From a virus, in the IMG/VR virus record IMGVR_UViG_3300005533_000002, positions 1 through 64,000 of that record: a stretch of 64,000 nucleotides of DNA; one strand, written 5' to 3'. This document shows, in pieces, positions 4,985 through 9,700 of the stretch. The translations under genes were made by a program, and so were the position numbers. The number at the start of each line of letters is the position of its first letter. The stretch's first letter is position 1. Below the pieces are notes generated by a model. It did not search any database. It was given only the letters and a program-made list of their open reading frames with translations, and was not told the origin of the DNA.

Positions 4985-5188
4985 ATGTCCAAAGTCAGCC
5001 ACAATGAACCAGATAATCACGAAGGCTTCGTGACAGTCCGAGAGGCTGCCACATATCTCCACCTGGGAATCAATTCGGTTTACCGACTAATCCAATCTCG
5101 ATTGTTGCCATCGGCGCGATTCGGTTCGCGCTCGGTGCGGATTCCACGCAAAGCGCTGTACGAATACGCGGAGAAGAGCTTGCAATGA
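4985..5188 (+). CDS. Excisionase-family helix-turn-helix protein
   Basis: 67 residues. FVTVREAATYLHLGINSVYR followed by LIQSRLLPSARFGSRSVRIP is the winged-helix pattern of the excisionase/MerR-like HTH_17 family: recognition helix then a basic wing. It opens a plus-strand island inside the head module and overlaps the next gene by four bases (ATGA), so the two are translationally coupled. The ATG sits right after the -10 box, suggesting leaderless translation; a longer frame from 4874 has no better start. It could be Xis or a local regulator. Confidence 0.8.
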   Translation: MSKVSHNEPDNHEGFVTVREAATYLHLGINSVYRLIQSRLLPSARFGSRSVRIPRKALYEYAEKSLQ

Positions 5189-5676
5189 GCACTGAAGGTA
5201 GCGACGTGCGCATCCGCGAAATGGACAGGCCGCTGCAAATCTGGTCTTGCATCTACTTCCTTGTTGGAAATAGCAAGCTTATTTACATCGGCAAGGCCAC
5301 AGAGTTGTATCGGCGCGTCCTGTGCAGCAATCACCACGTATTCCGGGAAGATAAGGTAGACCGCATATTCTACATCCAGATCCCCGGAGCCAACGGCGCG
5401 GAGCTGGAAGCGATCGAGAGGGTTTTGATTCGGCGATTCGCTCCCATAGAAAACACAACGGTTTCCAGGGCCGGACCAAAAGACGTTGCGGTGTACCATT
5501 CCCTGGTAGGCGACTGGGCGATAGACCAGCTCATGAAGATGTTCAAAGAACACGCAATCGACCCCTTTTCAACAGACAAGCATCTTTCCTTCAAAGAGAT
5601 CGGAGAGATAGCAAAGTTAATGGCCGCAAAACAAAAAGCGGAAGATGCTATTGAACAGATAGAGGAGAAACATTGA
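5185..5676 (+). CDS. GIY-YIG domain endonuclease
   Basis: 163 residues. The N-terminal half has the GIY-YIG core: IYFLVGNSKLIYIGKATELY, an arginine pair after it (YRRV), and a conserved Glu in ELEAIERVLIRRFAP. The C-terminal third is helical with a coiled-coil end. Located just downstream of an HTH gene in an island inserted in the head operon, which fits a free-standing homing-type nuclease. Its cleavage target is unknown. Ends overlapping the next start (TGATG). Confidence 0.85.
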   Translation: MSTEGSDVRIREMDRPLQIWSCIYFLVGNSKLIYIGKATELYRRVLCSNHHVFREDKVDRIFYIQIPGANGAELEAIERVLIRRFAPIENTTVSRAGPKDVAVYHSLVGDWAIDQLMKMFKEHAIDPFSTDKHLSFKEIGEIAKLMAAKQKAEDAIEQIEEKH

Positions 5677-6386: not shown

Positions 6387-6674
6387 ATGCAGCCATCGGT
6401 CGAGCAGCTCGCCTACCGAGAAGCATTAGAGATGCACGAACGCGAACAGACAGACGCACGCTTCGTCGCACTCACAATGGCCGAAACCAACCTCCTCCGA
6501 TGGGCGCAGAAAGCCATTGCAGCGATGCCAGGGCCGCCCGAGCTGCGTCGGCAATCGATGTTCGCCTTCGCGGCCGCGTGCGTTCCCGAGCTTCGTGGCG
6601 AGCTGATTGAATTCTGCGCCAAACTTGATGCCGTGTGGCTAGATCCAGAAATTGCGGCAAGGTATCAGCGTTGA
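6387..6674 (+). CDS. Hypothetical helical protein
   Basis: 95 residues from ATG 6387, chosen because GAGG precedes it; an in-frame ATG at 6375 overlapping the previous stop is the alternative. Mostly helical and charged (EQLAYREALEMHEREQTDAR), with a hydrophobic middle. Last gene of the island, followed by a strong hairpin terminator. Family unknown. Confidence 0.65.
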   Translation: MQPSVEQLAYREALEMHEREQTDARFVALTMAETNLLRWAQKAIAAMPGPPELRRQSMFAFAAACVPELRGELIEFCAKLDAVWLDPEIAARYQR

Positions 6675-6720
6675 GCTGTCTCCTGGGCACGCTTGTTGCG
6701 TGTCGGGGTGGCAGGAAGTG

Positions 6721-6754
6721 GGCCGGTGGGCTGGCGAGCCTCACCGGCCTTTTA
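6721..6754. terminator. Bidirectional terminator between convergent genes
   Basis: GGCCGGTG (6721-6728) and CACCGGCC (6742-6749) form an 8-bp stem followed by TTTTATTT. It sits between the ends of the plus-strand island and the minor head gene. Confidence 0.75.
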
Positions 6755-9700
6755 TTTCGCCATTTTCGATGAACGGGCAACAGCAATCCCATAGCGAATA
6801 TACTTGTTGCCATCGATATCCTTATCGTGCCAGTTGTCCAGGAACTTGGACTCTTCAATCATTACGCGGCCCGGCGCCTGGATGCTGCCGCTCTTGCGCG
6901 TGACGTTGTCCTCGCTGGAATCTTGGCAAAACACCAAGCCCAAATTTACGCCGATGACGGTTAGATAGTGTCCGTAAGCGAACTTCGCTTGGGCGGGAAC
7001 TTCGGGGCCGTAGTCCTGAACCGGGCAGATCACAGGCATGCCGGCAAGCCAGTAGCGGCGAAGATCCTCTAAAGTCAAACCGTCGCGAGCCTCAACGCTC
7101 AAGCCAAGTGATTGGAGCACTTCCACGATGGCTGCCGGCCTCGTGGACTGTTCAACGTTCGTGCCCAGAAGCTTCTTCCACTCTTCAAGCGTTGCCGGTC
7201 CGACGCCGAAGTAACGGCCCACACACATGGTCGCAGCCGCTCCGCAATTGCTAATGCAGACATTATTGACTACAATCCATCCAAGAGGAGACTCAAAATC
7301 GTACACGGGGCCGCTGTAATGGAAATTCCTAATCTCGACAATCTCATCCAAGAATATTTGTCCGGAATCTCCCTCGAGAAGCTTGCTCGCCAACACGGCA
7401 TCGGGGAGAAGGCTTTGTCCAGCGCATTCCGAAAGCGCGGCGTTCAGCTCAGAAGCTGGGCCGAAGCAGGCCGCTTGGTGTGGCGCAGAATGAGCCAAGC
7501 CGACAGGAAGAGGCAAGTTGCTGCCGCCCACCAAGCGACCAGGGGTAGCGTTCGATCCTTGGAAAGCAGACTTCAGGCCGCCGCCACATTGCAAAGAACA
7601 CTTGCGCGCACCGGAAACAACGAGATCACCTTGGCCGAATCGCTTAGAAGCCTCGGATATGACGTTGTTCGTCAATTTGCTGTAGGAACCTACAACTTGG
7701 ATATTGCCATCGAATTGCTTGGCGTCGCCGTGGAAGTCGAAAGCAAAAGCTGTAGCTTCAACTGGAAAAACTACCCCGGAGATGTTGAGGAGCGTACCAA
7801 ATACCTTCTCAACAACGGCTGGAGCGTGTTGTTTGTGGTTACTCGCGGATGCGGCCTCATCTTTCCCAACATAGTGCAAAAGACTCTGTCCTTTTTTGAG
7901 TTGGCCGGCAGGAACAAACCCTTCAACGGTCAGTATGGGATGATTAGGGGTAACGGAAAGAATCGCGCCGGAAACAGTTTTGAATTCAACGGTTTGCCCC
8001 GTGTACCTGGCTTTTGAACCGCCGATCACGCGCCCCTGCAACTCTTGGCCGGGCAAAATGCAGCTGTAATGATCGTGCTGGACGATGTCTGGAACGTTGA
8101 GAATGGCTGGACTGCCAGCGGCAAACGGCGCCTCTTCTAGCTCGCGGCGAGGTTTCTTGGCCCAGCTCTTTTCCTTGCCCGCCCTAGAGCCATGCTCAGC
8201 CAAGTGATTGAAGGCTTGCTCGTATGCTTCGGATTCGGTCATCTTTTGTGGATTGCCACGAACCAGCATGTCAAACAACTTGCTCTCTGCCTTCTCGGCG
8301 TCAGTGCCAAGTATATGCGGATAGCTGTTCATCATGCTGCGTGTGAGAAGATCAAATCCCTTCAGCTTGCTTGGGTCCAGATTGCCGCCGGCGTTTCGCA
8401 TTGCCAAGCCCGTAACATCGCCAATGTCCCGAGCCTTGGAAATTTTTCTGGCCTCTTGAAGCATCTTGGCCACGTCACTGTTTGCTTCGGCGTCGTGAGC
8501 CAACATATCGGCCGCGAGCTGGTGTAAGTGCCGCGGGTTGAGTCCCTCTTGCCGAGCCCTTTTGCCCCATCTTGCCCTATCGTATTCGGCCGATTGCTTC
8601 TTTTCGGCGCGGCCCGACTGCTCTTCCGCCGGCTCTTTGAGGGCATCGATTTTTCGTCCGACCAGTCCGGGCGCACCCTTGGTTATCCGCCCGTCCTTGA
8701 TAAAGACGTGCGTTCCACCGCCCTTCTCGTCGCCTTGTCCCGAAGCACCAATTGTGATCCACTGACCATCTTCGTTGTCGGCGGAAAACTCTTTCCGATA
8801 GCCAAGCCTGTCTGGGTGCGGCAATGGTTTATTCAAGTCGCCATATTCCGGCCCGAACGATGTTACCCGCCACTTCTGGCGAGCGGCATCCGCCTTTTCT
8901 TCGCGGACGGCCCTCTTGAACATCTTTTGCGCTTTCTTTTGGGCCGAATCCTGGTTTCTGGCAAATTGCGAATCCTGTTCGATTCCATTGATGTACAGGC
9001 TCACCCAGTGACCCATCTGCAATTCGTCGGGATCGTCATCCAATCCGCCAGCCCTGGTGTGAACTTCAATTTGGGTTTCTGGACGAGTGAACCCCCGAAG
9101 AGAAAAACCAGGAACAGTAATCGCACGGCTGGTAACTGCTTCGCTTTCAGAGCCCGAAGGCTTTTCCGCTTCGCCTCCCGTCGCCGTCCACTTGCCATCT
9201 TCATCGCGCGGCTGATCATCCGAGTAGAAAGAGACCAACTTAGAGAACAACTCGGCCAAGTTCGTCTCGCCGCGTATAAACGCGGTTGCCATTCTTTCCA
9301 ATTCTTCTTCGGTAGGCGCGAAATGGCTGCCGTGCTCGTATGCCTTCTTGAACAAATACCCTTTAAGGGATTCCTTGACGCGCTGGTGCAGGTCCGAGCC
9401 GGGCTCGGCAATCGTTCGCTTGCCCGAAGGCAGATGGAATGACTTGTCAAGTTTCTTGTCAGAACAACTGGTGTATTTTTCTGACAGCAACTGCTCGTAA
9501 TACTCGAAAGCGTCACTGGTTAGCGGATACGGGGTCTGATGCTGGCCGAAATGAACCAAGCCGGCTTCCAGCATAATAATTTGCTCATCGCTAAAGCCGA
9601 GCCATTCCCTCAGATACTTCCATACTTTGCTGGGCATAGACTGGCGCGGTTCGCGTCCTGGCTTGGCAGCGGAAACGGGAACGTGGGCGGCCTGGACGCG

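Follow-up and report, generated by a model that had tools for sequence, protein, structure and literature searches.

Known inteins carry a homing endonuclease within the same polypeptide or, in the case of split inteins, as a neighbouring gene. The locus described here raises the question of whether an intein can also carry such a gene on its opposite strand. It lies in a 64 kb stretch (hereafter the window) of a 77,116-base virus record. An initial annotation proposed that an intein in a phage head gene of the window has no endonuclease in its own frame, and that a plus-strand frame lying entirely within it encodes, codon for codon, a helix-turn-helix (HTH) and Vsr/DUF559 nuclease.

The head gene of the window is interrupted by an intein

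The host head gene lies on the same strand as the terminase and portal genes (Table 1). Sequence searches of Pfam, NCBIfam and the PDB match its minus frame to inteins, and PHROGs returns a phage head protein; in such searches the sense frame of the intein gave no nuclease match. The criteria for a Hint domain are present: blocks A, B, F and G, Cys1 (8060-8062), the TxxH of block B, the terminal Asn272 (7247-7249) and Cys+1 (7244-7246, all on the minus strand). In block B, N40, H41, T45 and G48 are invariant and T38 and P39 nearly so (alignment A9). The best Foldseek match of the predicted intein structure is the Mtu RecA intein (E=1.3e-4). AlphaFold2 models both Hint ends with pLDDT >90, and residues 128-221 fall below 50 and are predicted to be disordered; rows from GenBank records were left out of the structure-prediction alignments.

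Excision of the intein would fuse HDHYS to CGAAATMC in the host protein. The joined exteins reach 24.7 bits with Peptidase_C39_2 (cutoff 24) and the unspliced protein only 14.1. Since only the joined form passes the cutoff, the intein sits at the putative catalytic Cys. We consider it very likely that the element is a true intein, splicing being inferred from conserved motifs in the sequence alone.

Table 1. Features of the intein locus and their positions in the window
Feature	Position	Strand	Remarks
Host gene, phage head-region polyprotein, 1221 aa	6752..10417	-	C-terminal C39-like peptidase domain interrupted by intein
Intein, 272 aa (816 nt)	7247..8062	-	Cys1 to Asn272, then Cys+1
Intein block A, CILPGQELQGRVI	8024..8062	-	From sequence; Cys1 invariant (alignment A9)
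Intein block B, LSVTPNHPILTVEG, including VTPNHPILT	7919..7960	-	Alignment A9
Intein block F, SGPVYDFE (motif GPVYDFES)	7292..7315	-	GHVY[DN]L[QE] in most relatives
Intein block G, VNNVCISN, then ^C	7247..7270	-	Complement in relatives holds -10 box
Antisense nuclease gene, 232 codons, ATG 7319 to TGA 8015-8017	7319..8017	+	Entirely within intein
HTH/helical DNA-binding region, residues 5-57	7331..7489	+	HTH_28 weak in window; helices in model
Nuclease core, Vsr/DUF559/MTES_1575 type, residues 97-198	7607..7912	+	Pfam, profile and Foldseek matches
Conserved Glu102	7622..7624	+	61/63 representatives
Putative catalytic Asp128	7700..7702	+	185/185 loci
Putative catalytic Glu139	7733..7735	+	184/185 loci, Asp in the remaining one
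Promoter-like site TTGCTA-17-TACAAT, 9 of 12	7248..7276	+	At intein end
AGGAG Shine-Dalgarno-like motif	7286..7290	+	28 nt upstream of ATG 7319

The opposite strand encodes a Vsr-like nuclease

The phase of the plus-strand frame is such that every nuclease codon is the reverse complement of one intein codon. The initial annotation had stated this relationship, the motifs and the limits of both frames, and all of these held. However, the openness of the frame by itself is not significant in this window: when 554 stretches of 232 codons were taken from the exteins of the same gene, 73 (13%) likewise lacked stops in the antisense phase in question, and open-frame length was therefore dropped as evidence for the window copy. 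The host-gene extein also contains a 304-codon antisense ORF (8528-9442, plus strand, same codon-aligned phase), which calls for the same caution, as codon bias yields long antisense frames here. Unlike length, homology to a nuclease family, itself under selection on both strands, is decisive for the window ORF.

In Pfam, the window nuclease weakly matches MTES_1575 (E=1.1e-4), DUF559 and HTH families, with scores under the curated cutoffs. Its relatives match MTES_1575 (1.5e-8 for locus L014), HTH_7 (3.4e-9), CENP-B_N (1.4e-7), Vsr and DUF559, and HTH families pass the cutoff among them. Against the PDB, the family profile retrieves 3hrl (6.6e-5), I-Bth0305I (3r3p, 1.1e-3) and Vsr (1cw0, 0.025). 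The AlphaFold2 model of the antisense nuclease has a mean pLDDT of 88, and Foldseek ranks I-Bth0305I first among PDB structures, with Vsr lower (E 0.025-0.1, probability 0.99 and 0.85). The ORF is the sole match to the nuclease-family profile in the window; its E value of 2.8e-80 is inflated because the window is among the 63 sequences from which the profile was built.

Besides Glu102, Asp128 and Glu139, the residues Y125, N126 and R159 are conserved among the 63 representatives, and all are kept in the window. The catalytic residues first proposed were thus correct only in part, as conservation across the family holds for D128 and E139 but not for E141 and K143. Concerning the EDxHD signature, E102 and D128 are conserved, and His146 occurs in 31 of the 63 representatives and is absent from the window. 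Overall, the proposal of an antisense HTH and Vsr/DUF559 nuclease within an intein devoid of a sense-frame nuclease is supported; its homing role and cleavage are inferred.

Two-strand inteins form a widespread family

A tblastn search detected 89 phage records with the nuclease and 124 with the intein. Most of these copies lie within head-morphogenesis or MuF genes of phages of Gordonia, Mycobacterium, Salmonella, Escherichia, Pseudomonas, Cronobacter, Vibrio, Idiomarinaceae and Aggregatibacter. Both frames were free of stops at 90 of 91 aligned loci, with Hint motifs around most of them. The pattern of the search behind this alignment was the complement of block B, which biased it towards inteins. 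Two further searches were therefore run, one with a motif from the nuclease core and the other with a motif from the sense Hint domain. When 35 diverse nuclease cores were aligned, they proved too variable for a pattern search, but a closer subset was usable. The nuclease-core search, which contains no intein-derived motif, gave at least 539 relatives, and the best 80 viral and 14 bacterial-genome loci were read: in 94/94 the nuclease lay antisense within a long open sense frame. In the reverse search with sense Hint block F, an antisense nuclease was present in 80/80. The nuclease stop falls within the intein at 87 of 98 loci. An antisense nuclease inside an intein is therefore a widespread family with hundreds of related copies. 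In every annotated GenBank phage stretch inspected, the nuclease gene on the antisense strand was unlisted.

Several further observations were made on family members. Bacterial genome assemblies (L172-L185) also hold the antisense intein, probably in prophages; the carriers include Lamprocystis, Micromonospora, Glycomyces, Scytonema, Ornatilinea, Rubellimicrobium and Firmicutes. Many members (L009, L176, L181) appear to carry an additional HTH repeat at the N terminus, giving ∼290 versus 240 codons, so that the DNA-binding part of the nuclease looks modular. L064 is the sole locus of the 91 with a stop of the nuclease frame in the matched region, and its nuclease may be decaying while the intein remains intact. 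Finally, a 297-aa viral protein model (BFVD A0A3G3BXE8) matches the nuclease model (E=3.4e-12) and may be an annotated member.

Both frames are under selection

Given the codon alignment of the two strands, sense position 3 corresponds to antisense position 1. Substitutions were counted by sense codon position in 15 pairs of relatives (Table 2). The exteins and the Hint regions show a third-position excess on the sense strand (1675 versus 960 and 330 versus 224, respectively; z about 4.5 for Hint), whereas in the core, linker and HTH taken together the excess is on the antisense strand (784 versus 440, z about 10). Thus, the freely varying codon position changes strand inside the intein, where the nuclease starts. 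These z-scores are not strict probabilities, as the loci of the family are related.

Table 2. Substitutions at each sense codon position in 15 pairs of relatives
Region	Position 1	Position 2	Position 3
N-extein	889	742	1516
Hint N	132	67	182
Nuclease core	315	99	182
Linker	245	101	130
HTH	224	95	128
Hint C	92	57	148
C-extein	71	52	159

The codons TTA, CTA and TCA, which in the nuclease frame would be stops in the sense frame, are absent from the nuclease frames of 151 loci (0 versus 591 expected from extein codon use). Read as complements, the nuclease motifs VAVEV and YNLD give the conserved mid-intein sense motifs DFHGD and VEVV; likewise, block B TPNHPVMT lies opposite the nuclease tail GHYGVIRG.

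These results show that both frames are under selection, in complementary parts of the DNA. The two genes split the territory, with Hint at both ends and the nuclease in the middle, where the sense frame mainly needs to remain open and, in agreement with this, is modelled by AlphaFold2 as largely disordered; blocks F and G are the main places where the DNA truly serves both genes. The initial annotation had expected the two halves to constrain each other's evolution, and this holds only in part, the constraint being unequal along the length and mainly a division of territory. It had also named two outcomes that would refute it, and neither occurred: the plus frame is not full of stops or neutral but is open in homologues with its own third-position pattern, and the minus frame does not lack Hint conservation, as the Hint blocks are conserved.

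Splicing motifs of relatives contain probable expression signals of the nuclease gene

The block F sequence of typical members is G-H-V-Y-[DN]-L-[QE] and its complement is like TTGGAGGTCATAAACATG, with a Shine-Dalgarno (SD) ∼eight bases upstream of an ATG. The Leu codon of block F is CTC in 73 of 89 cases (21.5 expected), and an SD motif precedes 69/94 block-F starts as compared with 64/677 control antisense ATG/GTG codons. Opposite block G (G-I-I-A-H-N), the strand reads TGTGCTATAAT, the -10. We resampled synonymous codons at local extein usage with the amino acids fixed in 76 nonredundant loci. All signals exceeded the resampled values: 68 versus 33.0 loci for ATG, 58 versus 16.5 for SD, 65 versus 19.7 for the -10 and 21 versus 3.5 for the extended -10, and ATG, SD and -10 occur jointly in 53 of the 76 loci (3.1 expected). 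This enrichment at synonymous codons directly indicates selection for antisense expression. The embedded signals are under synonymous selection in the relatives.

The window copy is a variant

In the window, block F reads GPVYDF, Pro replacing the His that yields the ATG in relatives, and neither ATG nor SD is present there. As this abolishes the canonical start, ATG 7319 is likely to be the start of the window nuclease, an assignment inferred from sequence alone. The promoter-like site at the intein end overlaps the region of the family-enriched -10, and is weak alone (chance mean 0.5 per 2 kb). The AGGAG motif has a spacing unusable for ATG 7319 and might be a relic. The copy retains the Hint residues together with E102, D128 and E139. 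A single-sequence search of viral contigs returned no match, and the window thus lacks a near relative among them. The activity of this copy rests on family membership, because the canonical start and ribosome-binding site (RBS) are missing and no close element-bearing relative was found. Among the closest relatives found, L012 also has the GPVYDF variant, with both frames intact.

Empty sites and recent mobility

An alignment with relatives lacking the element had been proposed as a check, and such relatives were found. Salmonella phages VSiA, VSiP and PhiSTP1 have an intein-free head gene of 348 codons (stop included), and the gene has 620 codons in the intein-bearing phages SE1, LL_sp9, SaI_NFG_5577, PhiSTP2 and W5_chr3; the difference is exactly 272 codons, at PPAHPN^C. 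For the window gene, an intein-free homologue in L186 is 66% identical and reads NHYYCGACAA. The inteins of PhiSTP2 and W5_chr3 are 99.6% identical and their exteins 86.2%; those of E. coli phage Snoke and Salmonella phages BPS11Q3, LP31 and ZCSE7 are 95-96% identical, with exteins at about 71%. Precise empty sites and near-identical inteins in divergent head genes indicate recent mobility, and demonstrate a sporadic distribution and a recent lateral transfer of the intein that are independent of the host gene.

Moreover, Hint and nuclease distances are correlated (Mantel r 0.42, with 0 of 2000 permutations as high), and therefore both parts have at least partly travelled together. Occupied and empty genes are less identical close to the site. 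For the occupied SE1 and the empty VSiA, identity is 76-82% within 100 bp either side of the site, and reaches 92-100% further out, at 150-300 bp on the upstream and 200-300 bp on the downstream side. This dip could reflect co-conversion, with which it fits without proving it.

A model for the two-strand intein and alternative explanations

The most probable interpretation by far is a compact mobile intein consisting of two genes on opposite strands of one DNA; splicing, transcription of the nuclease and its protein, and cleavage are inferred. According to this model, the host head gene would be translated through the intein on the sense strand, and the Hint N and C parts (about residues 1-66 and 238-272) would meet and excise the 272-residue intein. 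Joining of the exteins would restore the C39-like peptidase, as inferred from conserved motifs. A separate antisense mRNA, starting near the C-terminal end of the intein, would encode an HTH and PD-(D/E)XK-type (Vsr/EDxHD-like) nuclease. In typical members its -10 would be the complement of block G, its SD and ATG the complement of block F, and its stop would lie near Cys1. By inference, the nuclease would cleave alleles without the intein at its insertion site, and repair of the cut allele would copy in the whole 0.8-1 kb unit. A bolder reading, which we favour with less certainty, is that these are a widespread undescribed class of phage inteins, self-contained elements of ∼0.8-1 kb whose splicing motifs are bifunctional DNA, the complement of block G providing the -10 and that of block F the SD and start of an antisense homing nuclease.

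Three alternatives were considered. The nuclease could be real in the family while the window copy is decaying or no longer homing. In favour of this, the GPVYDF variant has lost its start and RBS, no close relative is available and the active site, without His146, is divergent. However, the 232-codon frame is intact with E102, D128, E139, Y125, N126 and R159, and L012, among the closest relatives found, shares GPVYDF yet has both frames intact, so that we regard decay as unlikely. Alternatively, the Hint module could be another autoprocessing domain (BIL/hedgehog-like), with a regulatory nuclease. Weak matches of this module to PT-HINT and to a bacterial intein-like domain point in this direction, but the Cys1 to Asn-Cys+1 arrangement, the exact empty sites and the reconstitution of conserved exteins, including the split peptidase active-site Cys, make it very improbable. 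Lastly, that the plus ORF is a non-coding mirror image, produced by codon bias and conservation of the sense intein, is all but excluded and is refuted for the family: the absence of stops in this phase from 13% of comparable extein stretches of the window, and the part of the nuclease-frame conservation (GHYGVIRG) that merely mirrors block B, speak for it, but independent nuclease and HTH homology, D128/E139 conservation, the antisense third-position signal, the selected SD, -10 and ATG, and the well-folded model speak against it.

Relation to known mobile elements

The two-strand intein resembles canonical endonuclease-containing inteins (LAGLIDADG/HNH) in that Hint is split by a homing endonuclease, the insertion is at a conserved residue and empty alleles exist. 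In those, however, the endonuclease is in the sense frame, whereas here it is a separate gene on the opposite strand, with its own signals, and outside the spliced-out polypeptide. The nuclease fold is shared with I-Bth0305I and the EDxHD Vsr-like homing endonucleases (top Foldseek match and profile match to 3r3p). In 'fractured gene' split inteins, the nuclease gene lies between the halves. Enzymes of the I-Bth0305I type and of 'fractured gene' systems are intron-encoded, free-standing or located between split halves; here, the intein is contiguous and overlaps the antisense gene over its full length.

Antisense His-Cys homing genes such as I-DsqI have been described in nuclear rDNA group I introns (PMC9548176), and likewise have a strand opposite to that of their self-splicing host element. 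However, that element is an untranslated RNA intron without two-frame overlap and with another nuclease, whereas both strands are coding here. In phage ShiLan, an out-of-frame HNH insertion in a methylase (PMC11855218) is also a hidden homing nuclease overlapping an open host frame, but on the same strand, without a splicing domain or detectable RBS; here the nuclease is antisense and Vsr-like, with Hint and embedded signals. Overlapping frames are frequent in actinobacteriophages (PMC11855218).

The initial annotation knew of no antisense homing gene in an intein, a claim that could be checked only in part. In the open-access literature searched, antisense homing genes are described only in group I introns (I-DsqI), and nothing was found on an intein with an antisense nuclease; Gorbalenya 1998 and doi 10.1101/2025.01.02.630785 were outside its reach. 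The latter (Gosselin, Arsenault and Gogarten 2025) is a preprint on the 'non-canonical architecture' of actinobacteriophage inteins, cited in PMC11855218 from the same group, and it might describe part of this arrangement, namely the actinophage members.

In this family, one stretch of DNA codes for two enzymes, one on each strand, and in most copies examined the best-conserved splicing motifs also serve as promoter and RBS. The homing gene could be expressed independently of the host gene. With hundreds of members, it constitutes a natural, alignable case of sense-antisense coding in which codon-level trade-offs are measurable, and the two-strand intein explains many large 'hypothetical' head-morphogenesis genes.

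Neighbouring features of the window

Plus-strand ORFs finish just before the convergent minus-strand head gene (6674-6752), and the intervening sequence holds an inverted repeat rich in G+C (ggccggtg...caccggcc) that precedes a T stretch and resembles a terminator. Read-through of the plus genes past this point might also carry transcription into the antisense nuclease. A plus-strand ORF of 163 aa (5185-5676), close to where the intein gene ends, weakly matches a PHROG endonuclease (phrog_1111, E=4.4e-4), and IYFLVGNSKLIYIGKA within it looks GIY-YIG-like.
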